DNA from: Trypanosoma brucei gambiense DAL972
Taxonomy: Eukaryota > Euglenozoa > Kinetoplastea > Trypanosomatida > Trypanosomatidae
DNA length: 64,000 bases
Assembly (NCBI RefSeq): GCF_000210295.1
Contig: NC_026744.1
Span: forward strand, 992,001 to 1,056,000
Direction of reading: 5' to 3'
In this document: in pieces, positions 4,436-48,096 of the stretch
Layout of the letters: every line of letters begins with the position of its first letter
How positions within the stretch are numbered: position 1 is the stretch's first letter
Notes under the pieces: generated by a model
What the model was told of the DNA's origin: nothing
Databases searched by the model: none
Seen by the model: the letters and a program-made list of their open reading frames with translations, nothing else
Made by a program: the position numbers and the translations under genes

Positions 4436-6571
4436 ATGCAGCAGACCGAAAAGCGTGTGGGTGGTAACTGTGACGATGATGAGGTAATAGCTACTTATAA
4501 CGTGTACGCTTCCTCTTTTGCACAGCAGCAGCAGCAGTTACACATATTTCAATTCCCCTTAAGGTGCAGAGCTCGTCCTTATGAAGCTAACGAAGTGCGA
4601 CTCTTTGCAACGGAGGGTCTTATTCACAGCGACGAGGACTCAATTGCCAATAGTGGCTCGAGAGTGGGAGGAACTACGGCCTCCACACCGCGGCAAGAGA
4701 CCTTCGGAGCTGTGGCTCCCGTCATCCATCATTCGTCACGACTGACAATGCACTGTCATATCGATACGTTTGGCTCTAGTTCCTTCACTGAGCCGCAGCA
4801 GGATCATCGACTAGACGAGGACACCCAACGTGCGGAAGAGAGATCTAAGCACTCATACAACTACGCTCTACAGTCGCATCCTTTCAACCCTCACTGTGAC
4901 TACATGGTGGGACTTATCGTGGACGGCGTCGTGCATATCACTCCGGTGACGAGCATCCAGCAATTTACCCCCATTGTGAAGCCGCCTGATGCGAGCTCGA
5001 TGCACCGAGTAGGTGATGGGTTTCTCAGCGTGCCTTCGGTGCCGATAGTTCCCGGTCTTGCCGTTTCGGACCGCATAACCAGAGAAATGCTGCGACAGCG
5101 GAGTGTAATGCTAAACAACGATGCGGACACTGCAAAAGAGCTGCAGTACTTCCCTATACAATCCGTAGAAAGCATGGCAATGCGGCGACGATTGTGGGAC
5201 CGCACGGGCGCGTCGCACTGTTTCGCAGGACCCGCGGGTTGCGTTGGGAGTAACCCTTTTGGTGACAGCAAAGACGGCCATAACAACGGGCCGTACGTCG
5301 GGTCCCGCACGGAAGACTGTTTTTTCCCACCGGAACTTCTTGTATCCGGTGGGATTACAGGTGGCGAGCACGTCGTTAGTGGTGACAAAATGCTCCGGCG
5401 CTACGCCAACAGGCGTAGTCTTGTTGACCAGGTGCATATCTACTTACGTCGCTGTCAGGTGCTAACGCTTGATAAGCTGCGAGAGATGGTTGTTCCCCCT
5501 GACGGGGCCTTCTCTGGTGGTGCTTCTTCAACAAACCAATCAAAGGTACAGGAGAGTGTGACAGATGGACAGCTGCTCGCCGCTTTGCGTGATGGTGCCA
5601 TATGGATGCACGGTGTATGGGTGTCCAAAGTTGATCCAAACATGCGGGGTAACGCAGCTGCCCTACGCGAAGTTGTTTTGCTACACTTCTGCGAGAGCCC
5701 CAGTGGTGCCTTGTCCCGTGCACGGCTTAACGCCCTCGTAAGCAGCAACACGTTAAGACGTACTGTGAAGGAAATACTGGAAAGTATTGCTACGTTGAAT
5801 AGCGGGGAAAAAGACCCAGCACTGCGCGTGTGGCGGCTGCGGTACGTACCAGCCGATCCAATGGAACGAGCCGCATTGCTGGAGGTTGCGCAAAATGCGT
5901 ACAGACAGGAAATAGAATTCCAGACCATGCAGTGCAAAAGGCTTCACTCAAGCATAATGTCCCACCTTGAGGTGATCAACACCGGTAGGTTAGTGACACG
6001 TCTTCACTTTGTCAGTCGGGGAGGGGACAGAGGTGCAGAGGGCCCGACGGGGGCAGTAAACACAGCGGTCAGTACTGCAGCGGCGGCAGCGGCCACCACA
6101 GTGGCAACAAGTTTTACCGATAATGAACTTGCCCCCATCATCGCATTTATCCGACGATTGTTCCTTGAGCACGGAGTGGTGAACAAGCAGCGTGCGAAGG
6201 AGTTAGTATTGAAGGCAAAACAACAGAACTATCCCCATGCGACGAATGCAATGCTCAGCGCGGCGCTCCAGAGATGTGTTCAGCCCTTCACGGACGCAAC
6301 GTGGGTATTGAAGACACTGGAGGAGCCCGATGTGGATCGCCACCGCCCATTGATACTCGAAACCGCGCTGGAGTTGGTCAACTTCGGGATCAGGCCGTTT
6401 AATGCTTTATTAGCGCAAAAGCAACAACAGCAGCAGCCGGATGGAGAAGCAGCTGGTGCCCGGAAGGAGGACATGCAGAAAGTTGTTTCACGTGTGTTAG
6501 CTGAAATCGCGGTGTATCAATCGCACGAGAGGCTGTGGCACCTCAAGAGTGGCAATGTCATTGGACAGTGA
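4436..6571 (+). CDS. RPC5/RPC37-like subunit of RNA polymerase III
   Basis: 711 residues, close to human POLR3E (RPC5, about 708) and much longer than yeast RPC37. Near residues 22-50 there is a block of the form YNVYASSF...LHIFQFPLR, matching the start of the RPC5 dimerisation domain (acidic lead, then 'L.LFQ.P.RP'). Near residues 142-180 there is a second block, YNYALQ...VDGVVHITPV, matching the conserved 'Y..AL...GELHLTPL' segment. The C-terminal 300 residues are helical and could be the winged-helix extension present in human RPC5. The family pairs with RPC4/RPC53 and acts in initiation and termination of tRNA, 5S and U-snRNA synthesis in the nucleus. Assignment rests on my reading of these two blocks only. 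Poly-Q stretches occur near residues 28-32 and 660-665. Confidence 0.65.
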   Translation: MQQTEKRVGGNCDDDEVIATYNVYASSFAQQQQQLHIFQFPLRCRARPYEANEVRLFATEGLIHSDEDSIANSGSRVGGTTASTPRQETFGAVAPVIHHSSRLTMHCHIDTFGSSSFTEPQQDHRLDEDTQRAEERSKHSYNYALQSHPFNPHCDYMVGLIVDGVVHITPVTSIQQFTPIVKPPDASSMHRVGDGFLSVPSVPIVPGLAVSDRITREMLRQRSVMLNNDADTAKELQYFPIQSVESMAMRRRLWDRTGASHCFAGPAGCVGSNPFGDSKDGHNNGPYVGSRTEDCFFPPELLVSGGITGGEHVVSGDKMLRRYANRRSLVDQVHIYLRRCQVLTLDKLREMVVPPDGAFSGGASSTNQSKVQESVTDGQLLAALRDGAIWMHGVWVSKVDPNMRGNAAALREVVLLHFCESPSGALSRARLNALVSSNTLRRTVKEILESIATLNSGEKDPALRVWRLRYVPADPMERAALLEVAQNAYRQEIEFQTMQCKRLHSSIMSHLEVINTGRLVTRLHFVSRGGDRGAEGPTGAVNTAVSTAAAAAATTVATSFTDNELAPIIAFIRRLFLEHGVVNKQRAKELVLKAKQQNYPHATNAMLSAALQRCVQPFTDATWVLKTLEEPDVDRHRPLILETALELVNFGIRPFNALLAQKQQQQQPDGEAAGARKEDMQKVVSRVLAEIAVYQSHERLWHLKSGNVIGQ

Positions 6572-7333: not shown

Positions 7334-9730
7334 ATGGACACCCTTACGTACGTGTGCAGGGAGTGCGAAGCCAGCGCGTTGCGCATTGAGGTGCCGTTGA
7401 TTTCAGTTAAGGCAACCGCTTTTAACGATGACGTACCTGCGCTGATTTCATCCCACCGCCGGCTGCTCTGCATGAACATGAAGCAATCTAACCGCCTTCG
7501 TGTTCTCACACACAGGGGAAGTTACGCGGAGGTGGAAGTGGGCGCTACAGTACTCCGCAACCTCGTCTCCTCTGAGGGGTTACTGGAACACTGCTATTTT
7601 TTCGCAGCCGGTGGTAATGTGGTAGCGCGACTGGCCCCTATCAGGCAGGCGAACGGGGATGTAAAGATCGAGAAACGTGAGGTGCGTCTGCCCGAAGAAG
7701 TATACGGTGTAACTGTGGGTTATGGAGATATCGTGTATGTACTAGGGAGGTCTTGTGCTTTTGAGGTGCATATGGAGTCATCAAAAACGTCACCAATTGG
7801 ACTGGCACCCCGCACTTTTGTAAAACATTCGGTAATTGGATATCATCAGCAGGCGAAATTACTGTTAGCGCCGGCAAAGGCGAACTGCCTCGACCTCGTA
7901 TCAGCAACAGCCGGCGCGAGCGTCTTACCGAAAGTCTGGGAACCGCACGCCAACTCGATGCCAACTGCCGCATTTTTCTTCCAGAGACGCAGTTTTTCGA
8001 ATGAAAATTCGGATAACTTGTTCATTGTTACTGCGTCTCATGGCAACAGGGAACTCCGATTGTGGTCCTACAGCCAACGTACGAAGACATTTACTCTCAA
8101 ACAGGACATATCCATCACTATGGAGGACGATGGAGTGGTGGATGGGGACGAAAATGCTTTTCTTATTAGCTGCACACCCACAGAAGAGTATATAACGCTT
8201 TGCTCAAAACAGCGTCCTCTTGCTGTGGTGCTGGAGCTCAACCGCAGTAGTTTCAAGGTCGATCGTGTTACTTCGTGGAGACTTAATGGCCCCGTACTGG
8301 GAAGTGCGGCAGCGGTTAGCAAGATGACAGAATCGGCGAGCAGCACATCTGTCGAGTACCAGGTGATTTTAACCGTCCGCACGGCGACCGGTTTCTATGG
8401 AGAAGTGCTGGACGTAGAAAAGCCTGCGGAAGCATCCAACACACCTTCACTGAGGACAAACTCCGCCTCCTCGTGGTTTCCGAAAAACGAGGCGGCACAC
8501 ATCGGTGGGACAGAGATTGCTCTGCCCACAGCACTGACATCGGTCTCTTCGTCCGTCTTGGGTGACAAAACGACAAACGCCGTGCCACAGGGAGTTGCAT
8601 CTAACATTGTCCGTCAACAAGCCTCTCAGTTCTGTGAAACGCTGCGAAGCATTGATGAACGAGTTGTCAATTTGCAAAAACATGCATCGGAAGCGATGCG
8701 CCTCCTTCAAGAGGCATGGGAGCGAGAAAAAGCACAGACAATCGGGCGCGAATTTGCCATTCGTAACAAAGGCAGGTTGGAGCAGCAACAACAAGTAGCA
8801 GGACAATCTACCGATAACCTCACCCCCAGGCAGCAGGAACTACTGGAGGAAATCCGTTCTATTGTGGAAAAGTCAGAGCAGCTGGCCGTAGATACTGCCA
8901 CCGAGGTAGTGAAGGCACAACTTTCCCGGCGCCTGAAGGACGCCGTAGCGAAGGGTGCAAAGGAGGCAGATCAGGTTGAGTTGAGCTCCGGAACCCCCAT
9001 TGTTCGTTCCACGGACAGCATGCGCCTGTTCAGCAACGGCGTGGACGCTGCCGTACGCACACTCGTTCGCGCAGTAAAAGGATACCACAAAACGATGAAA
9101 ACTGTCGTGGATTCCTCATCAGCTGCGACAGCTAGTTGTGTTGCTAAAGCCAGGGAGTTCACGGCGTCCCTGAACCGTGAGAAGCAGTTACTTGCATCGG
9201 AATTGATGGCCACAATGGAGGTTGTGAGGCACGGCGGAGCACCGACCCAGCCGGTGGATCCAGACGCTCTTGTGGCGCGGGCAATCGCGCTAGCAGAAGC
9301 AAACGATTGGGTCACCTCCTTTACGACCGTGTTGGAGGCATCTGATATCACCGTCTTGTTGCACTTCCTCGAGAGTGAGGTGTGCGTGAATAACGTGACA
9401 GCTATGGTGAATCCGCAGTCGATTACCTTGCCTACATTTCTTAGCCTCTGTCTCCAGTTATCCTTTGAGCTGAATAATTTGCAGGGGCTCATTCCATCGC
9501 GTGTCAAGGCCCTTCACGCCTTCTTTGTTGAGTGGGATGATACACTGAAGGATATGAAGAGCAGGGCAGCAGATGGTAATAGCAAACACAAGCCGATGTT
9601 TGAGCTGACAAAACGCGAGTTGCGAAATGTATTGGAACAGTTGGAGATTGTCGACGATAAAGCAGTTGACCGATGCAGTCGAAACAATCTCCGGCTGCTG
9701 AAGAAACTCATTCACTTCCTGGTGACCTGA
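7334..9730 (+). CDS. EDC4/Ge-1-like protein (enhancer of mRNA decapping)
   Basis: 798 residues from the ATG at 7334; the frame is open to 7295 but only through a TTG. The N-terminal 360 residues look like a beta-propeller, with one clear WD-like strand around residues 228-245 (FIVTASHGNRELRLWS). EDC4 has the equivalent segment, with the same 'NREL..W' core. Residues about 440-600 are long charged helices. The last 155 residues (643-798) follow the EDC4 C-terminal helical domain: an opening 'A...A..W..SF...LEASDITVLLHFLE' pattern and a final 'RL.K.L..FL' helix. In animals and plants EDC4 scaffolds DCP1/DCP2 in P-bodies. Trypanosomes use the unrelated decapping enzyme ALPH1, so the partner here is unknown. 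Cytoplasmic granule location is inferred. Confidence 0.68.
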   Translation: MDTLTYVCRECEASALRIEVPLISVKATAFNDDVPALISSHRRLLCMNMKQSNRLRVLTHRGSYAEVEVGATVLRNLVSSEGLLEHCYFFAAGGNVVARLAPIRQANGDVKIEKREVRLPEEVYGVTVGYGDIVYVLGRSCAFEVHMESSKTSPIGLAPRTFVKHSVIGYHQQAKLLLAPAKANCLDLVSATAGASVLPKVWEPHANSMPTAAFFFQRRSFSNENSDNLFIVTASHGNRELRLWSYSQRTKTFTLKQDISITMEDDGVVDGDENAFLISCTPTEEYITLCSKQRPLAVVLELNRSSFKVDRVTSWRLNGPVLGSAAAVSKMTESASSTSVEYQVILTVRTATGFYGEVLDVEKPAEASNTPSLRTNSASSWFPKNEAAHIGGTEIALPTALTSVSSSVLGDKTTNAVPQGVASNIVRQQASQFCETLRSIDERVVNLQKHASEAMRLLQEAWEREKAQTIGREFAIRNKGRLEQQQQVAGQSTDNLTPRQQELLEEIRSIVEKSEQLAVDTATEVVKAQLSRRLKDAVAKGAKEADQVELSSGTPIVRSTDSMRLFSNGVDAAVRTLVRAVKGYHKTMKTVVDSSSAATASCVAKAREFTASLNREKQLLASELMATMEVVRHGGAPTQPVDPDALVARAIALAEANDWVTSFTTVLEASDITVLLHFLESEVCVNNVTAMVNPQSITLPTFLSLCLQLSFELNNLQGLIPSRVKALHAFFVEWDDTLKDMKSRAADGNSKHKPMFELTKRELRNVLEQLEIVDDKAVDRCSRNNLRLLKKLIHFLVT

Positions 9731-10645: not shown

Positions 10646-13600
10646 ATGAGCGTAGAAGAAGTGTCATGTCTTTCGGAGGACTTCGCTAGCCGCACAACAA
10701 CCAGCGTTCTCATCCTCTACGCTGACACGTACTTTGGTCGGAGGATGTTTCAGCAGTTTTACGGCCGCAAGAGTAAGACGGGTACGTGCTACAGGATTAA
10801 CGCGTGCATGTGGAGTGAGAGCAGCGTGGAAAACTTTATTGATTACTGTGACACGCTACCGTTCCAAATGGGTCACAGTTTCCGGTCCCGTCAGTCACTG
10901 CCAACCGTAATCGACCTCGGAACCCAGGCCGAAAAAGCCAATCTTGGTTCCACTATCGACGGTGGCGCCACACAGGGCCCAGATAATGCGGACGGGACGA
11001 GCCATCAGCTCAATGTCTTCTGGCGCCGAAATGGACCCAAGTTGCACCAGGCCGTGCTGGCATCAGACCTGATAGTAGTTGAGTTGCGCAGTGCACAGGA
11101 TGTATTTGACATTGTGCACCTTCTCACAACAAAGATTTTGCGAAAAACAAAGCGCCTTATTCTCGTCTCGTCACTACTAACGTGGTACGCCACGCCGCCC
11201 CTACAGAGGGAGTCGGTGGAGGAAGTGAACGGCGAAACAGACTCTGTTGAGAATGAAGAGGAGGGAGAACACCATGAGGAGGAACAGGAGGAGGTGCAGC
11301 AGCCCATGAAACCAGATGAAGTGGAGGCTTTGTTGGGACCTCTAGAGGTGGCCGAAGATGATTATGAAAACTCTCCCTTGGAGGGGGAGGCAGAAGGTGA
11401 GTTGGAACTCCTAACAGAAGATCAATACAACCGTCGCATCCCGCATGCCAAGTATTTCAACTGGCGCGAGGCGGAACGAGTTGTGGCTTCAGCGAACAGC
11501 GATGATCGCCATCTGCAGACCTGCGTTGTGTTTGCGGGTCTCACATACGGTGAGGGGGAAGATGTGATGGAGTCCTTCTTTCGCCAGGTGTGGAGCCGGG
11601 AGGAACATGGATTGCCCATATATGGTAGTGGCTCGCAGATTGTGCCATGTGTGCATATTCGCGACCTCGTGACGTTTGCGCAGCGGCTTTTGGAGGCGGC
11701 TGCACCGCCAACAAGCCGCTACGTGTTCGCTACAGATAACAGTAATGTTTCATGGCGGCGGATGGTTCTCGCACTAAACCGGGCGTTCGGTGGGGAGAAA
11801 ACATTCCATGTACCGCCTTCGGAGTACCTGCTTCACAAAAACGTAGAGCTCTTTACGATGAACCTTCGTGTGGAGAATTCCACGATGAATGAAATGATGG
11901 ACGAAAGTGATTGGGCGGCACGGGGCGGTTTCGTGGATTCCATTGATAAGGTTGCCCATGAGTTCATTGAGTCACATAACTTGCAACCGATACGCATCCT
12001 GATTCTCGGGCCACCTCTGTCCGGGAAAACTGCCCTGTCCGGGGCTGTGGCGAAGCGGCACTATCATGTGCCTACTTTCACGATAGAGCAAGTGCGGGAA
12101 GAGTACAAGGAGCACATCGAGATCCTGAAATCTAGACTTGCAAAGTTCCGTCAGTGCCTACATGAACGGGAAAAGACGCGTCGTGAAGAAGCGAAGAAGC
12201 GGGCATTCTTGCGACCGCGCAATAAGCCAGAGGTTAAGGAAGAAGAGGAAGATGACCAAAATGCCATGGGTGAGACACAGCAGCAACCAACAGCGTCCCC
12301 CGACAGCGGCCGGCAGGGAAATATGGAAAGCACCAGGCTAGTGGATTGTTCAACTACCGTTGCTGAGGATGATGTCGATGGTAAGGCGGTTGACTTTTCG
12401 CTGAACGAGGAGGAAATGCAAAACGTGGAGGCACTCGTCGACGATTGGTACCAGGGCAACGAACGTGCTATACAAATACGTGATACTATTGCGTCAATGG
12501 AGCGTGTACTCTCAATGCGGATAAGAGTACAGCCCCCAAGCTCAAATGACCCGTTGGGTTCCAGTAACCCAAAGAAGCGTAAAGAGGGAACGAAGCAGAA
12601 GCGTGTAGCAAAAGTTGTAAACAAGAAGCCAGTCGCTGAAGAAGAAGAACACAATCCTGTACAACAGGAAAGTGCTCCATTTCAGGACAAGGCACTTGCA
12701 TGCATGGTGCGGTGGCGGCTGTCCCGTCCGGATTGCCGTAACCAAGGATACGTGCTTGACGGCTTTCCAGAGACCGTGGAGCAGGCTCGCCTTGTCTTTG
12801 GCCAGACCCCACTGGAGCTTCCCGAAAACAATGAAGACACAGTAATTTCGTTGCCCTCCGCACCAGCCGGTAGTGGAGGGTATGCAAGGACGGCGGTTGT
12901 GCGTCACTCGGCGTCACTCTCGGCGAATGCTCCACCCGAGAGCACGGAGTTGTGTGACGAAGATCGGTTGCCTGATTTTGTCTTCGTCCTTACTGCTCCG
13001 GATAATTACCTCCTTGATCGTCTGACCGCTGTTTCCAAGATATCAGGCGAGACGGGAAGTACTGAGGAAAAGTGTCTGAGGCGGTTCGAGGCAGCGATGG
13101 CAAACTACCAACAACAGTACACGAACGCAGAATACACCCTTCCAAACTTCTTCGAAACTGCCAGCACCGTCGCCAAAGTGCTTACGCCAGGAGGCCGCAC
13201 CCCCACCGTGTTGGCGGTTGATGTGAGTGGTCAGCCCCTACTGCCTCCGCCACCACCGGAGTCCGATTTCGCCGTGCCCGAACCAGGTCAGCTGGAGAAA
13301 CTTCTCTGCGCATACGTCGGACCCTCCCACACGTTGGGGCTCTCTCCAAAGCAACTCTTCGATGAAGAAATACGAGCTCGTAATTTAGAAATGGAAGAAA
13401 GAAAGAAGGAGATGCGTGCCATCACCGAGCAGTACGAACGCGAGTTGCGTGAGTGCATGATGGAGAGCGAGCAGCGATCCGTCGTAGAAGATGCTCGGCG
13501 CGCCATCGACCTCGCGGACCGGGAGGCCCTAGAAGAACGCAAAAGACCGCTGCGGATGTATCTTAACCATAACATCATGCCGTTGCTGAGCAAGGGACTA

Positions 13601-13699
13601 GTAGAGGTGTGTAAAAGGCGACCCGTTGACCCTGTAGACTTCCTCGCCGAGTGGCTTATGCTCCACAACCCTCACGATGATTCGTGTTTTGAACTGTAA
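10646..13699 (+). CDS. Adenylate kinase 7-like protein (epimerase-like domain + kinase + Dpy-30 motif)
   Basis: 1017 residues with the three-part plan of AK7. Residues about 15-440 form a Rossmann/NAD-epimerase-like domain (TSVLILYADTYFGRRMF near the start, VHIRDLV near 335). It is interrupted by an acidic insert at about 190-250. A P-loop, GPPLSGKT, lies at about 455-462 and starts the nucleoside-monophosphate kinase domain. That domain carries a large Lys/Glu-rich insert (about 515-680), then a 'GYVLDGFPETVEQA' segment near 700. The tail, about 968-1005, is a Dpy-30-type dimerisation motif ending in DPVDFLAEWL. AK7 is an axonemal protein of motile cilia, where it recycles AMP/ADP for dynein. 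A flagellar role here is inferred. Human AK7 is about 720 residues; the extra length is in the charged inserts. Kinase activity depends on lid residues I did not map. Confidence 0.85.
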   Translation: MSVEEVSCLSEDFASRTTTSVLILYADTYFGRRMFQQFYGRKSKTGTCYRINACMWSESSVENFIDYCDTLPFQMGHSFRSRQSLPTVIDLGTQAEKANLGSTIDGGATQGPDNADGTSHQLNVFWRRNGPKLHQAVLASDLIVVELRSAQDVFDIVHLLTTKILRKTKRLILVSSLLTWYATPPLQRESVEEVNGETDSVENEEEGEHHEEEQEEVQQPMKPDEVEALLGPLEVAEDDYENSPLEGEAEGELELLTEDQYNRRIPHAKYFNWREAERVVASANSDDRHLQTCVVFAGLTYGEGEDVMESFFRQVWSREEHGLPIYGSGSQIVPCVHIRDLVTFAQRLLEAAAPPTSRYVFATDNSNVSWRRMVLALNRAFGGEKTFHVPPSEYLLHKNVELFTMNLRVENSTMNEMMDESDWAARGGFVDSIDKVAHEFIESHNLQPIRILILGPPLSGKTALSGAVAKRHYHVPTFTIEQVREEYKEHIEILKSRLAKFRQCLHEREKTRREEAKKRAFLRPRNKPEVKEEEEDDQNAMGETQQQPTASPDSGRQGNMESTRLVDCSTTVAEDDVDGKAVDFSLNEEEMQNVEALVDDWYQGNERAIQIRDTIASMERVLSMRIRVQPPSSNDPLGSSNPKKRKEGTKQKRVAKVVNKKPVAEEEEHNPVQQESAPFQDKALACMVRWRLSRPDCRNQGYVLDGFPETVEQARLVFGQTPLELPENNEDTVISLPSAPAGSGGYARTAVVRHSASLSANAPPESTELCDEDRLPDFVFVLTAPDNYLLDRLTAVSKISGETGSTEEKCLRRFEAAMANYQQQYTNAEYTLPNFFETASTVAKVLTPGGRTPTVLAVDVSGQPLLPPPPPESDFAVPEPGQLEKLLCAYVGPSHTLGLSPKQLFDEEIRARNLEMEERKKEMRAITEQYERELRECMMESEQRSVVEDARRAIDLADREALEERKRPLRMYLNHNIMPLLSKGLVEVCKRRPVDPVDFLAEWLMLHNPHDDSCFEL

Positions 13700-32400: not shown

Positions 32401-32714
32401 ATATATTTAAGGTAAGTACACCTGGAAGAACGTACAATACTTTGCGTATTTTCTTTTTTAATGACTATTCCGATCTTGACATACAACTTGTTTGTCTTTA
32501 CTTGCTACGTTGTTGCGGCGGAACCATCGGGAATGTGGCATATTCTTTTTTACACCCTTTGTTTAGCTAAAAGTGTTGTGTCGTTATCCTATGTCTTGTT
32601 CTTTTGCCTTCTCTACCTGTTCACGCAGTTTATTAGACGGAAAGGAAAGAGAAGGATCACACATATTTGTTGGGCACCGCAAGAATAGGAGCATACGCTG
32701 AAGAGAAAAGTAAG
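29401..32714. other. AT-rich gene-free stretch upstream of the aminopeptidase
   Basis: About 3.3 kb of AT-rich sequence with many stops in all frames, TA runs (about 31429-31442) and A runs (30507-30519, 31904-31916). No protein, tRNA-like cloverleaf or retroposon block was recognised. The base composition changes sharply near 29.4 kb from the GC-richer degraded ingi. The right end carries the splice signal of the aminopeptidase gene. Confidence 0.5.
32591..32628 (+). promoter_or_regulatory. Putative spliced-leader acceptor of the aminopeptidase gene
   Basis: A T/C-rich tract ends with CACGCAG at 32628. The first ATG after it is the chosen start at 32715, giving a 5' UTR of about 86 bases. 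Confidence 0.55.
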
Positions 32715-35330
32715 ATGTCCACGATCGAACGGGATACTCTCCCAAGCGATCCAACACCGCACCACTACAAAGTCAGTATTGTTCCTGACTTCGAAACGTT
32801 CAAGTTCACCGGTCATGTTGACATAAAGATAACCGCCGAAAAACCTCAACAGAAAATCACTCTCAACTATAGTGATTTAACGTTTGTGAAAGTAAGGGTT
32901 ACGCCAGGGGGGAGTGCATCGGAAACAGAGGAACTTCCCGCGGAATCCATAAGCCTCGACAAAACCGGGATGAAGGCAACGTTTTCTTTGCACAAGGCAT
33001 TTCAAGGAGAGGCAACACTCTCGATTGATTACACGGGAATCATAAATGACAAACTGGCAGGATTTTACAGGAGCAAATACACTGTTAACGGAAAGGAGTC
33101 GTATATGGGGACAACACAGTTTGAAGCTGTTGACGCACGCCAGGCAATCCCCTGCTGGGATGAGCCTGCAGTGAAAGCTGTGTTTGAAATAATTATAACT
33201 GCTCCTTCGCACCTAATGGTGCTATCCAACACTCCATCTTACAAGAAGGAGGTGGTTGATGATAAGACACGTTGGTTCTTTGAGCCCACGCCCAAAATGT
33301 CGACTTATCTTCTCGCGTGGACGATAGGTGTGTTCGAGTGTATTGAGAAGCGCATCCAGAAGGTACACAAAGGAGCAGGTGGTCAAACTGAAGAGACCAT
33401 TATACGCGTGTTTACTCCTGAAGGTAAAAAGTCAAAAGCTTCTTTTGCTCTGGATGTGGCTTCTAAAGTGTTGCCATTGTATGAAGAGTTCTTCGGATCA
33501 AATTACGTGCTTCCAAAAGTTGACCTTTTGGCAATTCCTGACTTTGCCGCCGGGGCAATGGAAAATTGGGGGCTTATAACATATCGTGAAACAGCCCTAC
33601 TATGTGATGCCGAATCAAGTGCGGCTCAGAGGTACTATGTCGCTCTAGTGGTTGCCCATGAACTGGCCCACCAGTGGTTTGGAAACCTCGTGACCATGCA
33701 ATGGTGGAAGGAGCTCTGGCTTAACGAATCGTTTGCCACGTACATGGAGTACCGGGCGGTGGATAAGTTGTTCCCAGAGTGGCGTGTCTTCACGCAGTTC
33801 GTCCACGATGAGGTTGCTCGAGCCTTTCAACTGGATTCGATGCGTAGTTCCCATCCCGTTGAAGTGGATGTCAAATACGCTAAGGAGATCGACGACATTT
33901 TTGATGCCATTAGTTACAGCAAGGGTGGGAGCATCATTCGCATGGCAGTTAATTTCATCGGAGAGGAGGCATTCCAAAAGGGAATGTCGGAGTATTTGAA
34001 GCACTTCGCCTATGGTAATGCAACAACGAAGGATCTGTGGAATTTTCTTGGAAATGCTGCAGGCAAACCCTTGGCCCCTATACTGGAGTACTGGACGGGG
34101 CGGCAAGGTTATCCTTACCTTATTGTTACGTCGTCACCTGACAAAAAGACTTTGAACATAACTCAAAAGCGCTTTCTAGCTACAGGTGACGTCACCGCCG
34201 ACGAGGATGAAACAGTGTGGAAGGTACCTTTGCTTATCTCGACTCCGGAAGACGGGGTTCAGCGTTATATTCTTGAGAAACGGGAAAACCCAATACCGGT
34301 AAAGTATAACTCGTGGATAAAGGTAAACAGTGAGCAATCGGCCTTCTGCCGTGTCCACTATCAAGGCAACGGTTTGCTCGAAGGTTTGCTTCCCGCCATT
34401 GCTTCGAAGAACCTCTCTGATATAGACCGATTTTCTATTATTTCCGACTACCACGCCTTTGCTCGTGCCGGTTACTGCAGCACCGTCGACGTGCTCAAGA
34501 TTCTTTCTTCTTATGTTGACGAAGACGATTATACTGTGTGGTGCTCCGTCGTTGGCTTTGAGAAAGAGATACGGATGCTGGTGTCCAGCCAGGGTCGAAG
34601 TGCTGTTGATTCACTGAATGCTTTCTGTCGCAACTTGTACTCGAATGCCATGAAACGACTCGGCTACGCGCAGAAGCCTGGCGACGATAATCGTTTGACT
34701 CAACTGCGCAGCGTTCTCTTCGACAGACTCGTAACATCTGAGGATAAGGAGGCCGTTGCCTATGCTTGCAAGCTTTATGCGGAACGGCAAAAGGTGCCAA
34801 TTCCTTCGGACTTGCGGTACACTGTGTACGCTACGCACGTTAAATTAAACGGCGAGCCCGCGTTTCAGGAGGTGAAGCAACTTGCTGAGGTTACTGTGGA
34901 CGCGATGGAGCGGACTCATTACCTTCGTGCGCTTGCATCTTCCGAAGTTGATGGTGTGGTGAGTCAGCTCTTTCAATACTCTCTCTCCGAAAAAGTTCGG
35001 AGCCAGGACGTTTTGGCCATTCTTGGCGCACTGGCCAGCAACGCTGCGAGGGTTAAAGCATACGCCGAAGAACTGAAGCAGATGTGGCCAAGGTTGGGGA
35101 AGGAGCTTCCCGGACTTATACTCGGGAGGGCGCTAAAATATTTGGAAAATGGTGCTGATGCAGCGGTGGCCGATGAAATGGAACAGTTCTGGAGCCACCT
35201 TGCTGATGAAGCTAAATTCGGGATGACCCGCAGCTTCCAACAGGGTGTGGAGGGACTCCGCAACAACGCAAAATGGGCGGCGCGAGACGTGAAGACTGTG
35301 GTCGAGTTTCTTTCGGTTGCAGCGTTATAG
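32715..35330 (+). CDS. M1 family zinc aminopeptidase
   Basis: 871 residues from the ATG at 32715 (MSTIERDTLP); upstream in-frame sequence reaches only a TTG. The exopeptidase motif GAMENWG lies at about 280-286 and the zinc site HELAHQW at about 315-321. The third ligand Glu lies in NESFATYMEY some 20 residues on. The order is the usual M1 plan: N-terminal beta domain (opening PHHYKVSIVPD), thermolysin-like catalytic domain, small beta domain, C-terminal helical ERAP1_C-like domain. The length matches cytosolic puromycin-sensitive aminopeptidases (about 870-920). No signal peptide is seen, so a cytosolic peptide-trimming role downstream of the proteasome is likely. All catalytic residues I can see are intact. 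Confidence 0.96.
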   Translation: MSTIERDTLPSDPTPHHYKVSIVPDFETFKFTGHVDIKITAEKPQQKITLNYSDLTFVKVRVTPGGSASETEELPAESISLDKTGMKATFSLHKAFQGEATLSIDYTGIINDKLAGFYRSKYTVNGKESYMGTTQFEAVDARQAIPCWDEPAVKAVFEIIITAPSHLMVLSNTPSYKKEVVDDKTRWFFEPTPKMSTYLLAWTIGVFECIEKRIQKVHKGAGGQTEETIIRVFTPEGKKSKASFALDVASKVLPLYEEFFGSNYVLPKVDLLAIPDFAAGAMENWGLITYRETALLCDAESSAAQRYYVALVVAHELAHQWFGNLVTMQWWKELWLNESFATYMEYRAVDKLFPEWRVFTQFVHDEVARAFQLDSMRSSHPVEVDVKYAKEIDDIFDAISYSKGGSIIRMAVNFIGEEAFQKGMSEYLKHFAYGNATTKDLWNFLGNAAGKPLAPILEYWTGRQGYPYLIVTSSPDKKTLNITQKRFLATGDVTADEDETVWKVPLLISTPEDGVQRYILEKRENPIPVKYNSWIKVNSEQSAFCRVHYQGNGLLEGLLPAIASKNLSDIDRFSIISDYHAFARAGYCSTVDVLKILSSYVDEDDYTVWCSVVGFEKEIRMLVSSQGRSAVDSLNAFCRNLYSNAMKRLGYAQKPGDDNRLTQLRSVLFDRLVTSEDKEAVAYACKLYAERQKVPIPSDLRYTVYATHVKLNGEPAFQEVKQLAEVTVDAMERTHYLRALASSEVDGVVSQLFQYSLSEKVRSQDVLAILGALASNAARVKAYAEELKQMWPRLGKELPGLILGRALKYLENGADAAVADEMEQFWSHLADEAKFGMTRSFQQGVEGLRNNAKWAARDVKTVVEFLSVAAL

Positions 35331-37639: not shown

Positions 37640-38461
37640 ATGGCCAAGAAGCACCTAAAGCGCCTGTATGCCCCCAAGGACTGGATGCTGAGCAAACTCA
37701 CTGGTGTGTTTGCCCCTCGTCCACGTGCTGGTCCCCACAAACTACGCGAGTGCCTTTCGCTTCTGATTATTATTCGCAACCGGCTGAAGTATGCACTAAA
37801 TGCCCTCGAAGCGCAGATGATCCTTCGTCAGGGACTCGTGTGTGTAGACGGCAAGCCCCGCAAGGATGGTAAGTACCCAGCCGGTTTCATGGACGTGGTG
37901 GAGATTCCCAAGACGGGCGACCGCTTCCGCATCCTATATGACGTGAAAGGACGCTTTGCGCTTGTCCGCGTGAGCGAGGCTGAGTCGAGCATCAAGATGA
38001 TGAAGGTTGTCAACGTATACACCGGCACGGGACGCATTCCTGTTGCTGTGACACACGACGGCCACCGGATTCGCTATCCCGACCCCCGTACGAGCCGTGG
38101 AGACACTTTGGTGTATGATGTGAAAGAAAAAAAGGTTTTGGACCTAATCAAGATTGGCAACGGCAAGGTTGTGATGGTGACAGGTGGTGCCAACCGTGGT
38201 CGTATTGGAGAAATTGTGTCCATTGAACGTCACCCTGGCGCCTTCGACATCGCCCGCCTCAAGGATGCGTCTGGTCACGAATTCGCAACTCGTGCCACAA
38301 ACATTTTTGTGATTGGCAACGACATGTCGAGTGTTCCAGTTACGTTACCTAAGCAACAGGGTTTGCGTATCAACGTGATTCAGGAGCGTGAGGAAAAACT
38401 CATAGCCGCCGAAACACGCAGAACAACTCAGGCGCACAGCAAGCGAAAGACTAAGGTGTAA
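37640..38461 (+). CDS. RPS4: 40S ribosomal protein S4 (eS4), copy 1
   Basis: 273 residues, normal for eukaryotic eS4. It starts MAKKHLKRLYAPKDWMLSK (the RS4 N-terminal domain). An S4 RNA-binding segment follows (about 40-110, with LRECLSLLIIIRNRLKYAL), then the central domain, then a KOW motif around VVMVTGGANRGRIGEI (about 175-190) and a basic tail. It is a structural protein of the small ribosomal subunit on its solvent face. A second gene with an apparently identical reading frame follows 247 bases later, a common way for trypanosomatids to raise expression without promoter control. Confidence 0.97.
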   Translation: MAKKHLKRLYAPKDWMLSKLTGVFAPRPRAGPHKLRECLSLLIIIRNRLKYALNALEAQMILRQGLVCVDGKPRKDGKYPAGFMDVVEIPKTGDRFRILYDVKGRFALVRVSEAESSIKMMKVVNVYTGTGRIPVAVTHDGHRIRYPDPRTSRGDTLVYDVKEKKVLDLIKIGNGKVVMVTGGANRGRIGEIVSIERHPGAFDIARLKDASGHEFATRATNIFVIGNDMSSVPVTLPKQQGLRINVIQEREEKLIAAETRRTTQAHSKRKTKV

Positions 38462-38708
38462 GTTGGTCTCTTTCTGCTGACTTTTTTTTTACGAAGAAGC
38501 AAGGATTTTGGTTCCATTCATACTAATTTATTTTACGTTTTATAATCTATTGATTTATGTTGATCGAGACCCGTCACTATCACTAACATCAGCAAGGCAA
38601 GTGTGCACATTTGCAGTTCCCCCTTGTCGATAGTGTATAAAAGATACGCATTTCCTCCCCCGAAAACAATGTCTTCCGTTTAAAAAGTGGTTTGTTTAGC
38701 CGTCCCCA

Positions 38709-39530
38709 ATGGCCAAGAAGCACCTAAAGCGCCTGTATGCCCCCAAGGACTGGATGCTGAGCAAACTCACTGGTGTGTTTGCCCCTCGTCCACGTGCTGG
38801 TCCCCACAAACTACGCGAGTGCCTTTCGCTTCTGATTATTATTCGCAACCGGCTGAAGTATGCACTAAATGCCCTCGAAGCGCAGATGATCCTTCGTCAG
38901 GGACTCGTGTGTGTAGACGGCAAGCCCCGCAAGGATGGTAAGTACCCAGCCGGTTTCATGGACGTGGTGGAGATTCCCAAGACGGGCGACCGCTTCCGCA
39001 TCCTATATGACGTGAAAGGACGCTTTGCGCTTGTCCGCGTGAGCGAGGCTGAGTCGAGCATCAAGATGATGAAGGTTGTCAACGTATACACCGGCACGGG
39101 ACGCATTCCTGTTGCTGTGACACACGACGGCCACCGGATTCGCTATCCCGACCCCCGTACGAGCCGTGGAGACACTTTGGTGTATGATGTGAAAGAAAAA
39201 AAGGTTTTGGACCTAATCAAGATTGGCAACGGCAAGGTTGTGATGGTGACAGGTGGTGCCAACCGTGGTCGTATTGGAGAAATTGTGTCCATTGAACGTC
39301 ACCCTGGCGCCTTCGACATCGCCCGCCTCAAGGATGCGTCTGGTCACGAATTCGCAACTCGTGCCACAAACATTTTTGTGATTGGCAACGACATGTCGAG
39401 TGTTCCAGTTACGTTACCTAAGCAACAGGGTTTGCGTATCAACGTGATTCAGGAGCGTGAGGAAAAACTCATAGCCGCCGAAACACGCAGAACAACTCAG
39501 GCGCACAGCAAGCGAAAGACTAAGGTGTAA
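38709..39530 (+). CDS. RPS4: 40S ribosomal protein S4 (eS4), copy 2
   Basis: Encodes the same 273-residue protein as copy 1, and I found no base difference between the two reading frames. The identity begins at the ATG and ends at the TAA. Bases before the start (CGTCCCCA against CTGAAACA) and after the stop (CGGCTAAA against GTTGGTCT) are unrelated. This suggests the two copies have been kept alike by conversion confined to the coding part, or recent conversion between old duplicates. Different UTRs could give the copies different mRNA stability. Confidence 0.97.
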   Translation: MAKKHLKRLYAPKDWMLSKLTGVFAPRPRAGPHKLRECLSLLIIIRNRLKYALNALEAQMILRQGLVCVDGKPRKDGKYPAGFMDVVEIPKTGDRFRILYDVKGRFALVRVSEAESSIKMMKVVNVYTGTGRIPVAVTHDGHRIRYPDPRTSRGDTLVYDVKEKKVLDLIKIGNGKVVMVTGGANRGRIGEIVSIERHPGAFDIARLKDASGHEFATRATNIFVIGNDMSSVPVTLPKQQGLRINVIQEREEKLIAAETRRTTQAHSKRKTKV

Positions 39531-39822: not shown

Positions 39823-41130
39823 ATGGCTCTTGGATTTTCCTCTGCGGGGGAAGTGTACATGTACGCAACATGCATCCTTCTTGGAGTGTCCCTTCTAATG
39901 CCCCTTAACGCTCTCGTTTCCGCACCGCGCTTTATGGTGGACTACTACAAGTACGTATCTGGTAAAGAGGATGCCGAACCGAACCTTCCCTTTTTCTGGA
40001 AGAATATTTTCACGTTCTACAATGTTGTATCGCTTGCGTCGCAGGTGATTGCTGGACCGACCGTTCTAACTCGTGCAGCCCGTCGACTTTCATTATCTGT
40101 GCGCTTTGCCCTTTCCATCACGTTGATGATGTCGGAGGTATTTGTAGTTCTCATGATGCCTGTGATCAAGGTACCTCAAACAGTTGCCATTGTTCTTCTC
40201 TGCCTTGTGACAATATTTGCAGGTATTGGGAAATCATACCATGAGGCGACGTGCTACGTTCTGGTGGCGTCGATGCCATCTAAGTTCATGTCTGCTGTTA
40301 TGTTTGGAGTGTCACTATGCGGTGTAATAACGTCCACATTACAGTGCATCATCAAGGCATCAATGGAAGATACCTATGAGTCCGTGCTGACGCAGTCATA
40401 CATTTATTTTTCACTTGGTCTACTGATAATGGCGGGTACACTTGCGATGGCTCTCTGTCTACGATATAATTCCTACGCGCAGGAGCACGTTGCTGAGTAC
40501 CGTATGCTCAAACTACAAGAACAAGGAGTAGATGCTGAGTCTCAAAATGATGAGAATGAACCCGTGGCTGAAGGTAAAGGTGAAGGTGAAGGTAAGAGTG
40601 AGGGTGCCATGACGACAGCAGAGCAACTGACGGCAACTGCTGTTATGCCCGTAGCGAGGATAATCCGTATGATGTTAGTGACAGTCTTCTGCGGCTTCTT
40701 CCTCACCTTATTTATCTTCCCCAGTCTTATTATTCCCATCGATCGTGACCACAATTGGTTTGCGACAATTGCCATTCTGCTATACAACTGTGGGGATGCT
40801 ATTGGACGTTTCTCCACCTCGTTCAAGTGCGTTTGGCCGCCCCGCCGTGCTCTGCTGTACGCCACCTTCGCCCGCTTCATTTTTGTTCTGCCCTTCATGT
40901 TATGCATTTACCAATACATCCCTGGCCATGTCGGTCCGTATATCTTCTCGTTTCTCCTTGGCCTGACCAACTGTGTGGGTGCCATGTCGATGGTGTATGG
41001 CCCAATAACCCCTGGTCTTGAGACTGCGGGTCAGAAATTGATGGCTGGACAGTTGATGGGGATTTCGCTGCTTTCTGGAATTGCCGCTGCATCTGTTCTT
41101 GCGATGATTGTGGTTGTCTTCCTACCATGA
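39823..41130 (+). CDS. NT8: NT8-type purine nucleobase/nucleoside transporter, copy 1
   Basis: 435 residues of the equilibrative nucleoside transporter (ENT, SLC29) family. Hydrophobic segments fit the 11-helix plan with a short N-terminus (MALGFSSAGEVYMYATCILLGVSLLMPLNAL; family 'f.l.G.g.LlPwN'). A charged, Gly/Glu/Lys-rich cytosolic loop lies between helices 6 and 7 (about residues 225-270). C-terminal helices carry the 'FSTSFKCVWPPRRAL' segment ('GR......' of the family). T. brucei cannot make purines and imports them with such proteins. NT8.1 has been described as a purine nucleobase transporter. Assignment to NT8 rests on remembered gene order beside RPS4 and adenylosuccinate synthetase. 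Plasma-membrane location is inferred. Confidence 0.9.
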   Translation: MALGFSSAGEVYMYATCILLGVSLLMPLNALVSAPRFMVDYYKYVSGKEDAEPNLPFFWKNIFTFYNVVSLASQVIAGPTVLTRAARRLSLSVRFALSITLMMSEVFVVLMMPVIKVPQTVAIVLLCLVTIFAGIGKSYHEATCYVLVASMPSKFMSAVMFGVSLCGVITSTLQCIIKASMEDTYESVLTQSYIYFSLGLLIMAGTLAMALCLRYNSYAQEHVAEYRMLKLQEQGVDAESQNDENEPVAEGKGEGEGKSEGAMTTAEQLTATAVMPVARIIRMMLVTVFCGFFLTLFIFPSLIIPIDRDHNWFATIAILLYNCGDAIGRFSTSFKCVWPPRRALLYATFARFIFVLPFMLCIYQYIPGHVGPYIFSFLLGLTNCVGAMSMVYGPITPGLETAGQKLMAGQLMGISLLSGIAAASVLAMIVVVFLP

Positions 41131-42794
41131 GTACGCTTAATGGAGGAGCCGCCTCTCACTAACACCACTTTGTTAGTACGTGACGTGTTTTAAGTGATGG
41201 AGCATCGTTGATGTTTTATCAAAGATACTATCTTAACTTGTATATATATATATATATATATATGTATTAGTTTATATCTTTTTTACATTAACAAGATTAT
41301 TTTATTTTAATTATTTATTTTTTTTTGATTTTCCTTTAACTGAAGGCATGTGCGGGTAAGGCAGCATAAACTATTTTGGACTGCCTCAGTACGCTAGCCC
41401 CTTTATAACATACGTTTTTGTTTATTTTTTTTGTCTTAGGACTGCTTCCCCGCTACTGGGTATGTTGAGGGAAAAAACGTCAGACACTTTCTCTCGGCAC
41501 CTGGTGCGGTATGTCCGGCATTTACTTCCCTTCCTTTTTTTTTTATGATGCACATTACGTTGCCTGCTGAAGATATTGTTTGGAGCAATGTGCCTGTGGT
41601 GTTTGGGTGTACTGAAATTTGTGGTGAGACGGTGCGACTCTTGTGTGGTTAAGTAAAGGAATGTGAACTGATTGTACGATATGCCACTGGTGTCGCTACC
41701 ATTCACTGTCAACGAGCTTCAACCATTATTAGTGGTGTGATTTTAGTGGATATAAATAAGAAATAAATTTCTAGTGTGTGTTTTCTCCCGTTTCCTCCTT
41801 CTTTCATGTAGGCCAACTTTAGTGCGTATGTACGGAGGGATAATATTAGTGTTTAGTAATTTCTGCGTAAATACCTGCGGTTTCCTTGTTTGCAGCAACA
41901 CGTTACCTTTCAACTATAGACCTCCGTTGCGTGCTACAATCGTTATTTGTGTATTATAATTATCTATTTTTTAAAAATTATATATATATATGTTTGTTTG
42001 TTGTATAACTTCGGGGAAGCGCTGTTTTGTAAGGCCGTGTTAGGAAATCTGTATTACTGGTAACAGTAGTAATAAATGGGAGATCGTCTAATTTGTGTGC
42101 GTCACGGGGTTTAATGATTATTGTGATGTGCGGTTGTATTGCTGTTATTTTCTGCATCTGATATGCTTTAGGTTTAAGTACTCAATACCTTCTCCATCCA
42201 TATAGATATTGTTTCCTTCTCTTTCTCTTTCTCCTTTTCTTTCCTTTCTTATATCTTATTCCTACTGCCCCATTGCGGTAGTGATAGCGTCAAGTTTATG
42301 TATGTTGTTGTAGTTGTACTTGCCGCGCTGCTTCGAAGCTGTTGGCTCACCAATGGTTTTACTGGATATGGTGTTCCGAAGTTTTTGGAGGACCTATTGC
42401 ATATGTCCATGTTGCTGTACCGTTGTGTTTGCCTTTCGATGAACTCCCGTGGATTTGCGTGCTCGTGTTTTTGCTTTTTGCTTCTGTTATGTGGTAATGG
42501 CGGATGTGTATACGATGGCGATATTCACATATATGTGATAAGGATGGTGCAGAACCGCAACCACTAAATACTTGCCTGTAAAATGAGCAGTATCATCCCC
42601 ACTTAAGGAAACTGTAAGCTTAGTCACTTCCCTCCTTTCTCTTTCTTTTTGTACGAAGGTTAAAGCCACAAGACTCTCTTACTGAACTCAGGCAAGTGAA
42701 CAACACCGCACTAAACCAGAATCGCATAAGTTACATCCACTATCCATCCACTCGGGTTTAACTGAATTGCATCGCTGGATACCTTTTGTGTGCA
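41131..42794. other. Array spacer 1 (3' UTR and next leader)
   Basis: Holds the 3' UTR of copy 1 with (TA)n at about 41240-41263, a stem-loop at 41359-41386, T/C-rich tracts (42206-42248, 42627-42648) and the leader of copy 2. An 89-codon ATG frame (42298-42567) recurs in every spacer because the unit is repeated; its Val/Leu/Cys-rich product has no similarity I know. Confidence 0.6.
41359..41386 (+). promoter_or_regulatory. 3' UTR stem-loop of NT8 copy 1 (candidate purine-response element)
   Basis: AGGCAG (41359-41364) pairs with CTGCCT (41381-41386) around a 16-base loop. The same sequence is found in copies 2, 3 and 4. A stem-loop of about 35 nt in the NT8 3' UTR has been reported to repress expression when purines are plentiful; this hairpin is a candidate for it. 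Confidence 0.6.
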
Positions 42795-44102
42795 ATGGCT
42801 CTTGGATTTTCCTCTGCGGGGGAAGTGTACATGTACGCAACATGCATCCTTCTTGGAGTGTCCCTTCTAATGCCCCTTAACGCTCTCGTTTCCGCACCGC
42901 GCTTTATGGTGGACTACTACAAGTACGTATCTGGTAAAGAGGATGCCGAACCGAACCTTCCCTTTTTCTGGAAAAATATTTTCACGTTCTACAATGTTGT
43001 ATCGCTTGCGTCGCAGGTGATTGCTGGACCGACCGTTCTAACTCGTGCAGCCCGTCGACTTTCATTATCTGTGCGCTTTGCCCTTTCCATCACGTTGATG
43101 ATGTCGGAGGTATTTGTAGTTCTCATGATGCCTGTGATCAAGGTACCTCAAACAGTTGCCATTGTTCTTCTCTGCCTTGTGACAATATTTGCAGGTATTG
43201 GGAAATCATACCATGAGGCGACGTGCTACGTTCTGGTGGCGTCGATGCCATCTAAGTTCATGTCTGCTGTTATGTTTGGAGTGTCACTATGCGGTGTAAT
43301 AACGTCCACATTACAGTGCATCATCAAGGCATCAATGGAAGATACCTATGAGTCCGTGCTGACGCAGTCATACATTTATTTTTCACTTGGTCTACTGATA
43401 ATGGCGGGTACACTTGCGATGGCTCTCTGTCTACGATATAATTCCTACGCGCAGGAGCACGTTGCTGAGTACCGTATGCTCAAACTACAAGAACAAGGAG
43501 TAGATGCTGAGTCTCAAAATGATGAGAATGAACCCGTGGCTGAAGGTAAAGGTGAAGGTGAAGGTAAGAGTGAGGGTGCCATGACGACAGCAGAGCAACT
43601 GACGGCAACTGCTGTTATGCCCGTAGCGAGGATAATCCGTATGATGTTAGTGACAGTCTTCTGCGGCTTCTTCCTCACCTTATTTATCTTCCCCAGTCTT
43701 ATTATTCCCATCGATCGTGACCACAATTGGTTTGCGACAATTGCCATTCTGCTATACAACTGTGGGGATGCTATTGGACGTTTCTCCACCTCGTTCAAGT
43801 GCGTTTGGCCGCCCCGCCGTGCTCTGCTGTACGCCACCTTCGCCCGCTTCATTTTTGTTCTGCCCTTCATGTTATGCATTTACCAATACATCCCTGGCCA
43901 TGTCGGTCCGTATATCTTCTCGTTTCTCCTTGGCCTGACCAACTGTGTGGGTGCCATGTCGATGGTGTATGGCCCAATAACCCCTGGTCTTGAGACTGCG
44001 GGTCAGAAATTGATGGCTGGACAGTTGATGGGGATTTCGCTGCTTTCTGGAATTGCCGCTGCATCTGTGCTTGCGATGATTGTGGTTGTCTTCCTACCAT
44101 GA
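42795..44102 (+). CDS. NT8: NT8-type purine transporter, copy 2
   Basis: 435 residues, the same protein as copy 1. The frame is open nine bases upstream through TTG, but the ATG at 42795 corresponds to the start of copy 1. Silent differences from copy 1 include an A for G in the Lys-Asn codons after FFW and G for T near the 3' end (codon GTG for GTT in SVLAM). These markers are shared with other copies in mixed combinations. Confidence 0.9.
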   Translation: MALGFSSAGEVYMYATCILLGVSLLMPLNALVSAPRFMVDYYKYVSGKEDAEPNLPFFWKNIFTFYNVVSLASQVIAGPTVLTRAARRLSLSVRFALSITLMMSEVFVVLMMPVIKVPQTVAIVLLCLVTIFAGIGKSYHEATCYVLVASMPSKFMSAVMFGVSLCGVITSTLQCIIKASMEDTYESVLTQSYIYFSLGLLIMAGTLAMALCLRYNSYAQEHVAEYRMLKLQEQGVDAESQNDENEPVAEGKGEGEGKSEGAMTTAEQLTATAVMPVARIIRMMLVTVFCGFFLTLFIFPSLIIPIDRDHNWFATIAILLYNCGDAIGRFSTSFKCVWPPRRALLYATFARFIFVLPFMLCIYQYIPGHVGPYIFSFLLGLTNCVGAMSMVYGPITPGLETAGQKLMAGQLMGISLLSGIAAASVLAMIVVVFLP

Positions 44103-45768
44103 GTACGCTTAATGGAGGAGCCGCCTCTCACTAACACCACTTTGTTAGTACGTGACGTGTTTTAAGTGATGGAGCATCGTTGATGTTTTATCAAAGATAC
44201 TATCTTAACTTGTATATATATATATAAATATATATATATGTATTAGTTTATATCTTTTTTACATTAACAAGATTATTTTATTTTAATTAATTTTTTTTTT
44301 GATTTTCCTTTAACTGAAGGCATGTGCGGGTAAGGCAGCATAAACTATTTTGGACTGCCTCAGTACGCTAGCCCCTTTATAACATACGTTTTTGTTTATT
44401 TTTTTGTCTTAGGACTGCTTCCCCGCTACTGGGTATGTTGAGGGAAAAAACGTCAGACACTTTCTCTCGGTACCTGGTGCGGTGTGTCCGGCATTTACTT
44501 CCCTTCCTTCCTTTTTTTATGATGCACATTACGTTGCCTGCTGAAGATATTGTTTGGAGCAATGTGCCTGTGGTGTTTGGGTGTACTGAAATTTGTGGTG
44601 AGACGGTGCGACTCTTGTGTGGTTAAGTAAAGGAATGTGAACTGATTGTACGATATGCCACTGGTGTCGCTACCATTCACTGTCAACGAGCTTCAACCAT
44701 TATTAGTGGTGTGATTTTAGTGGATATAAATAAGAAATAAATTTCTAGTGTGTGTTTTCTCCCGTTTCCTCCTTCTTTCATGTAGGCCAACTTTAGTGCG
44801 TATGTACGGAGGGATAATATTAGTGTTTAGTAATTTCTGCGTAAATACCTGCGGTTTCCTTGTTTGCAGCAACACGTTACCTTTCAACTATAGACCTCCG
44901 TTGCGTGCTACAATCGTTATTTGTGTATTATAATTATCTATTTTTTAAAAATTATATATATATATGTTTGTTTGTTGTATAACTTCGGGGAAGCGCTGTT
45001 TTGTAAGGCCGTGTTAGGAAATCTGTATTACTGGTAACAGTAGTAATAAATGGGAGATCGTCTAATTTGTGTGCGTCACGGGGTTTAATGATTATTGTGA
45101 TGTGCGGTTGTATTGCTGTTATTTTCTGCATCTGATATGCTTTAGGTTTAAGTACTCAATACCTTCTCCATCCATATAGATATTGTTTCCTTCTCTTTCT
45201 CTTTCTCCTTTTCTTTCCTTTCTTATATCTTATTCCTACTGCCCCATTGCGGTAGTGATAGCGTCAAGTTTATGTATGTTGTTGTAGTTGTACTTGCCGC
45301 GCTGCTTCGAAGCTGTTGGCTCACCAATGGTTTTACTGGATATGGTGTTCCGAAGTTTTTGGAGGACCTATTGCATATGTCCATGTTGCTGTACCGTTGT
45401 GTTTGCCTTTCGATGAACTCCCGTGGATTTGCGTGCTCGTGTTTTTGCTTTTTGCTTCTGTTATGTGGTAATGGCGGATGTGTATACGATGGCGATATTC
45501 ACATATATGTGATAAGGATGGTGCAGAACCGCAACCACTAAATACTTGCCTGTAAAATGAGCAGTATCATCCCCACTTAAGGAAACTGTAAGCTTAGTCA
45601 CTTCCCTCCTTTCTCTTTCTTTTTGTACGAAGGTTAAAGCCACAAGACTCTCTTACTGAACTCAGGCAAGTGAACAACACCGCACTAAACCAGAATCGCA
45701 TAAGTTACATCCACTATCCATCCACTCGGGTTTAACTGAATTGCATCGCTGGATACCTTTTGTGTGCA
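44103..45768. other. Array spacer 2
   Basis: As spacer 1, but the TA microsatellite is interrupted by an extra A (about 44213-44240) and the T tracts differ in length. Includes the stem-loop at 44333-44360 and the leader of copy 3. Confidence 0.6.
44333..44360 (+). promoter_or_regulatory. 3' UTR stem-loop of NT8 copy 2
   Basis: Same AGGCAG/CTGCCT hairpin and loop as copy 1. Confidence 0.6.
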
Positions 45769-47076: not shown

Positions 47077-48096
47077 GTACGCTTAATGGAGGAGCCGCCT
47101 CTCACTAACACCACTTTGTTAGTACGTGACGTGTTTTAAGTGATGGAGCATCGTTGATGTTTTATCAAAGATACTATCTTAACTTGTATATATATATATA
47201 TATATGTATTAGTTTATATCTTTTTTACATTAACAAGATTATTTTATTTTAATTATTTATTTTTTTTTGATTTTCCTTTAACTGAAGGCATGTGCGGGTA
47301 AGGCAGCATAAACTATTTTGGACTGCCTCAGTACGCTAGCCCCTTTATAACATACGTTTTTGTTTATTTTTTTTGTCTTAGGACTGCTTCCCCGCTACTG
47401 GGTATGTTGAGGGAAAAAACGTCAGACACTTTCTCTCGGCACCTGGTGCGGTGTGTCCGGCATTTACTTCCCTTCCTTCCTTTTTTTATGATGCACATTA
47501 CGTTGCCTGCTGAAGATATTGTTTGGAGCAATGTGCCTGTGGTGTTTGGGTGTACTGAAATTTGTGGTGAGATGGTGCGACTCTTGTGTGGTTAAGTAAA
47601 GGAATGTGAACTGATTGTACGATATGCCACTGGTGTCGCTACTATTCACCGTTAATGGCCTCGACCATTTTTTTTTTTTGACATTAATGGGGTAAATTTT
47701 TGTTTTTGTAAAAAGGCATGAAGAAAGTAATAATACTGGTATCAGTTGTAATAAACAGGGATTCACCTAACTCTCGTGTAGTTTGCGGTTATTCTGCTTG
47801 TTGTTGTACCTACTGTGCTTTAATGCAATGTGGTTGGTGGGTCCTTCATTTCTCTATCTTTCTCTGCTTCTTCTTTAATTTTTTTCTTATCTCTTATCCT
47901 TAATGTTTAACTGCGGCAGTTATTGCTCCAAGCTTGTGTATGTTGTAGCTGTACTTGGTGAGTTGTTCTTCTTTGTGTTTTACCTTTTTATTTGTTCCTT
48001 TATATTGTTTGATTTCCCATTTCCCATTTCCCATTTCTTTTCTTCTTTTCTTATTTTTTTGTTATTTTGTTTCATATTCATTAGTATTTTTGTGTA
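47077..48096. other. 3' flank of copy 3: standard 3' UTR switching to the array-end flank
   Basis: The first part matches the other copies (short TA repeat at about 47187-47203, stem-loop at 47301-47328). From about 47640 (TACTATTCACCGTTAATGG) it leaves the spacer sequence and matches 52580-53027, the flank preceding bL27m. Two small sequence differences are visible, such as an extra CCCATTT unit near 48018-48035. Confidence 0.7.
47301..47328 (+). promoter_or_regulatory. 3' UTR stem-loop of NT8 copy 3
   Basis: Same AGGCAG/CTGCCT hairpin and loop as copy 1. Confidence 0.6.

Follow-up and report, generated by a model that had tools for sequence, protein, structure and literature searches.

A probable divergent EDC4/Ge-1 protein in the published ALPH1 complex of Trypanosoma brucei

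Metazoan EDC4/Ge-1 proteins, beside which VARICOSE is cited as the plant counterpart, are found in a decapping complex with XRN1 and localise to RNA granules. They are ~1400 residues long and are composed of a WD40 propeller, a linker, long helices and a distal Ge-1 domain with a conserved arginine. The propeller binds DCP1 in animals (PMC8984151), and the C-terminal region of C. elegans EDC4, where DCP2 binds, is tetrameric, with the human and Arabidopsis homologues predicted to be alike (PMC13103063, in its accessible text, which as late as 2026 calls EDC4 metazoan-specific). The S. pombe protein Pdc1 interacts with Edc3 in an organism that bears Dcp2 (PMC8984151). Here we analysed a 64,000-nucleotide window of Trypanosoma brucei gambiense DAL972 (GCF_000210295.1, NC_026744.1, contig 11, positions 992001-1056000) and found a gene whose product is predicted to show the same succession of regions as metazoan EDC4/Ge-1 but in 798 residues, with a short linker and with Pfam models below cut-off. 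Its fold, its family relationship and the identity of its gene, Tb927.11.3490, are established here by computation; membership of the EDC4 family is well supported, and the protein is very probably EDC4. The features on which the argument draws, in window coordinates, are as follows.

7334..9730, plus strand: EDC4/Ge-1-like gene, 798 residues, by gene order Tb927.11.3490 (open reading frame (ORF), homologues, gene order, mass)
7466..8413, plus strand: WD40-like beta-propeller, residues ~45-360 (structure model)
7937..8065, plus strand: Ge-1-type WD40 signature WxPH...NxE[LI]xxW, residues 202-244 (motif counts; inside the hhalign match 201-327)
8414..8587, plus strand: low-confidence linker, residues 361-418 (model confidence, composition)
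8588..9232, plus strand: predicted long helices over residues 419-633, at the position of the proximal coiled coil in EDC4 (model, at low confidence)
9260..9724, plus strand: Ge-1 C-terminal (distal) domain, residues 643-797 (model, structural alignment)
9692..9694, plus strand: codon for R787, which likely corresponds to R1340 of Ge-1 (R in 17/17; alignment-end offset; NVRLL/NLRLL)
4436..6571, plus strand: RPC5/C37, 78.6 kDa, Tb927.11.3480, anchor neighbour directly upstream (Pfam RPC5, 5.5e-70; mass; table in PMC11894013)

The N-terminal half forms the WD40 beta-propeller expected of an EDC4/Ge-1 protein. In the model, strands run from residue 45 to ~360, and 24 of the 32 ten-residue blocks of residues 41-360 have predicted local distance difference test (pLDDT) values of 67-91, with lower values at both ends. 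The original prediction had proposed such a propeller with an NREL..W strand, and both were recovered: all 17 family members carry the signature W-x-P-H-x(n)-N-x-E-[LIM]-x-x-W, as do 112 of the 120 EDC4 records listed; in the EDC4 records aligned it lies at 340-383. W202, P204, H205, N238, E240 and W244 are invariant (17/17). Alignment of the N half with EDC4 by hhalign scored 49.6, compared with 16.3 ± 2.9 for 100 column shuffles, none of which scored as high. Against EDC4 residues 330-470 the P value was 8.1e-7, and three controls gave 0.0075-0.26. In neither structural listing was the EDC4 propeller among the 50 matches listed.

The C-terminal domain was also proposed to resemble that of EDC4, and the structural comparison bears this out. 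Residues 643-797 are modelled as a confident helical domain, the distal domain expected of EDC4/Ge-1. When VIA-align was used to re-align 993 of Foldseek's first 1000 chains, the Drosophila Ge-1 domain (2VXG) outranked every other chain aligned, at 17% sequence identity; Foldseek itself gave no match below E 0.44, and 2vxg was not among its best 50. The corresponding hhalign score of the C half with EDC4 was 30.3 versus 12.3 ± 2.3 (200 shuffles), and all six mismatched domain pairings gave P values of 0.065 or worse. In the EDC4 records aligned, the Ge-1 domain starts near residue 1268. The structural alignment ends at model residue 158 and Ge-1 residue 1350 (numbering that takes the PDB chain as beginning at 1216), and ten residues before these ends, R787 (model residue 148) sits in the string NLRLL and R1340 in the similar NVRLL. 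R787 is invariant (17/17), and in EDC4 both candidate positions, 1386 and 1387, carry arginine in 12/12. This pairing uses the end offset and local similarity rather than residue-level superposition, and the sequence alignment is uncertain there; R787 likely provides the conserved last-helix arginine of EDC4/Ge-1. In Drosophila Ge-1, R1340E alters P-body localisation (accessible text of PMC10756542, citing Jinek 2008).

The two domains are connected by a linker of ~58 low-confidence residues, with 27% Ser + Thr across residues 361-420, followed by long helices. The pLDDT of these helices, at 419-633, is ~35-60, so the coiled region that had been proposed to join the two halves is a likely coiled coil. 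The hhalign comparison of this middle region with that of EDC4 gave a P value of just 0.025.

Ordinary hidden Markov model searches between the trypanosomatid family and EDC4 were weak. A search of 5.8 billion proteins (7,994 candidates scored) identified 17 family members including the query, and those named by organism are trypanosomatids with 37-64% identity to the query. The family profile, run against 5.8 billion proteins (7,993 candidates scored), recovered nothing beyond the same 17. Against PDB sequences, single-sequence phmmer found no match and the family profile just six weak, unrelated ones (best E 0.039), and the Pfam EDC4_C model did not match the protein. The Pfam Ge1_WD40 family matches ten of the 17 members, weakly and below cut-off in all, followed by Med11 (8/17, also weak). 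Whether another family would score better had been raised at the outset: no Pfam family matches more members, and in members P0002 and P0005 weak unrelated ones outscore Ge1_WD40. Med11, DMPK_coil (3/17), AAA_25 (1/17) and other weak Pfam matches were rejected, being below cut-off and inconsistent among members. The T. vivax orthologue carries a precomputed Ge1_WD40 label in its database record, through which automatic annotation perhaps points to EDC4 kinship already.

The ORF at 7334-9730 has 798 codons, no internal stop and an 87.8 kDa product; its start codon at 7334 is backed by an in-frame stop at 7280 and by M1, invariant across 17 aligned proteins. The protein matched a single locus in its own genome (two candidates scored), the genome-wide profile searches covering the 22.1-Mb assembly of 11 contigs. 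Tb927.11.3480 is tabulated as C37/RPC5, 78.6 kDa (PMC11894013, in part), and the accessible text of PMC10415143 describes Tb927.11.3490 as 87 kDa with "no predicted domains"; adjacency to RPC5 and a size of ~87 kDa, both expected of Tb927.11.3490, are found here. Steps of ten from RPC5 over the larger plus-strand ORFs, by our own choice of ORFs that leaves small ones at 13801 and 28884 uncounted, put the transporter array (39823 onward) at Tb927.11.3610, and the published nucleobase transporter locus is Tb927.11.3610-.3630. By its RPC5 neighbour, its mass and this gene count, the gene is therefore Tb927.11.3490 of T. brucei.

Several points weigh against these assignments. Earlier controls with EDC4 profiles counter the specificity of the WD40 match; as far as sequence profiles can tell, the hhalign comparison with EDC4 330-470 resolves them in its favour. 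For the gene count, the accessible text of PMC12589498 (2025) seemingly lists Tb927.11.3490 as a metallopeptidase, and in PMC4696300 Tb927.11.3500 is one of the proteins with RNA-binding domains. Neither label fits the window. The EDC4-like gene has no peptidase domain, the window's M1-family aminopeptidase lying at 32667-35330, and the adjoining gene (10646-13699) instead encodes 1017 residues that end in a Dpy-30 motif and match adenylate kinase weakly. We regard the two labels as either ambiguous or wrong.

The presence of Tb927.11.3490 with ALPH1 and XRNA, and its localisation, have been established in others' publications. According to the accessible text of PMC10415143, the core complex comprises ALPH1, XRNA, a CMGC kinase, Tb927.11.3490, Tb927.9.12070 and a Tc40-like protein. 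Every ALPH1 truncation labels Tb927.11.3490 in proximity labelling, and XRNA capture brings it down in T. brucei and T. cruzi. Capture of C-terminally tagged ALPH1 keeps only two proteins, and of N-terminally tagged ALPH1 three, Tb927.11.3490 being included in both. It associates with mRNA and relocates to the posterior pole and to starvation granules. The same text gives Edc1-4 as missing in Discoba and Metamonada, reports that HMMER finds Tb927.11.3490 in kinetoplastids only, and proposes a convergent complex. Residues 463-1043 of the human protein served as its EDC4 query; with the WD40 signature at 340-383 and the Ge-1 domain from ~1268, this query missed both conserved regions. The original prediction took no EDC4 equivalent to be established in trypanosomes, and in the literature searched (preprints and most subscription papers were outside its scope) no listing names a kinetoplastid EDC4. 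Within that literature we found no report of Tb927.11.3490 as EDC4.

Unlike metazoan EDC4/Ge-1, the trypanosome protein probably serves ALPH1, in a genome in which DCP1 and DCP2 models find no match. In searches to an E value of 1, the DCP1, DCP2 and PAT1 models gave zero genome matches; the LSM14 (4.3e-26) and XRN_N (1.5e-94) models matched the same genome. The control genomes were prokaryotes and gave no match to DCP1, DCP2 or PAT1, so the absence of these three, which for DCP1 and DCP2 the original prediction had also taken as given, rests mainly on published work. As far as the searches see, DCP1 and DCP2 cannot be the partners used, and the trypanosome propeller must have a partner other than DCP1. 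The LSM14 (SCD6-type) domain match (L005) lies at 112918-113145 of contig 11, the same contig as the EDC4-like gene, and the ALPH1 gene (738 residues) at 571-2787 of locus L026 on the minus strand.

Together, a divergent EDC4 acting as a scaffold for ALPH1 is the probable reading. Because Tb927.11.3490 is in the ALPH1 core complex and the published EDC4 query lacked the conserved regions, the scaffold has probably survived the loss of DCP2 and come to carry ALPH1, the first of the two roles that had been proposed for it; the published proximity labelling and affinity capture favour this role. Tb927.11.3490 would be a decapping scaffold in which the C-terminal Ge-1 domain with R787 may help to concentrate the protein in RNA granules, and the long helices would probably self-associate into an oligomeric platform. 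The propeller and/or helices would directly bind the ApaH-like decapping phosphatase ALPH1 and hold it beside the exonuclease XRNA, and this bridging would couple decapping to 5'-3' decay. We infer an order of events in which kinetoplastids replaced DCP2 and retained its scaffold.

A variant that we consider rather doubtful keeps the ancestral EDC4-XRN1 platform but has ALPH1 gain a Ge-1-like C-terminal domain, by which it docks on or co-assembles with the scaffold instead of DCP2. The ALPH1 C-terminal domain itself is reported to resemble 2VXG by structure (accessible text of PMC10415143). As a single sequence, this domain gave no signal with either Ge-1 profile (40/100 and 15/100 shuffles scored as high), so the capture step gains neither support nor exclusion from sequence.

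It is unlikely that Tb927.11.3490 is an EDC4 homologue that no longer scaffolds decapping, organises posterior-pole or stress granules or stores mRNA, and meets ALPH1 through shared granules. This would fit the accessible text of PMC10415143, in which posterior-pole granules show no mRNA enrichment and ALPH1 localisation there is non-essential, and that of PMC10998879, in which it is named as a candidate substrate of TbDYRK and lies close to Alba 4 when cells lack TbDYRK. However, ALPH1 capture retained Tb927.11.3490 after losing most partners, XRNA included, and with XRNA as bait it was recovered from two species. Convergence, whereby an unrelated kinetoplastid protein reached the same layout as in the published view of the complex, is very improbable: the 17% identity of the C domain and the published HMMER searches (PMC10415143, in part) with no homologue outside kinetoplastids are as it predicts, but two separate domains match one family in the same order, and a specific motif and probably also the functional arginine are retained. 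Least credible is a wider WD40-plus-helical-domain relative such as katanin p80. Katanin p80 has WD40 repeats, its C-terminal domain shares the fold (PMC10756542, in part), as in general does that of SPIRAL2, and katanin ranks first in Foldseek for the C domain, but at E 0.44. The structural Z of katanin p80 and SPIRAL2 is lower, the EDC4-like protein has no con80 match, and T. brucei's own p80 is encoded by a separate gene on C9 (the only con80 (PF13925) match in the genome, C9:1250707-1251192, 6e-27), which neither EDC4-like family profile matches (P 0.034 and 0.77).

Elsewhere in the window, two tandem ribosomal protein S4e genes (273 residues, identical Pfam scores) occupy 37640-39530, and four nucleoside/nucleobase transporter ORFs (435, 438, 438 and 438 residues) occupy 39823-52081. 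The knock-out paper on the transporter locus names three genes (.3610-.3630); the fourth ORF may be an extra copy in the DAL972 assembly or a differently named gene.

The ALPH1 complex has hitherto been presented as a kinetoplastid innovation convergent with the DCP2 complex (PMC10415143, accessible text). If EDC4 is among its core subunits, the two complexes have their platform in common and the enzyme alone was exchanged, which changes the evolutionary story. A protein with "no predicted domains" would gain testable surfaces, and the roles that EDC4 has for any decapping enzyme, to localise it, to cluster it and to couple it to XRN1, would become separable from those specific to DCP1/DCP2.
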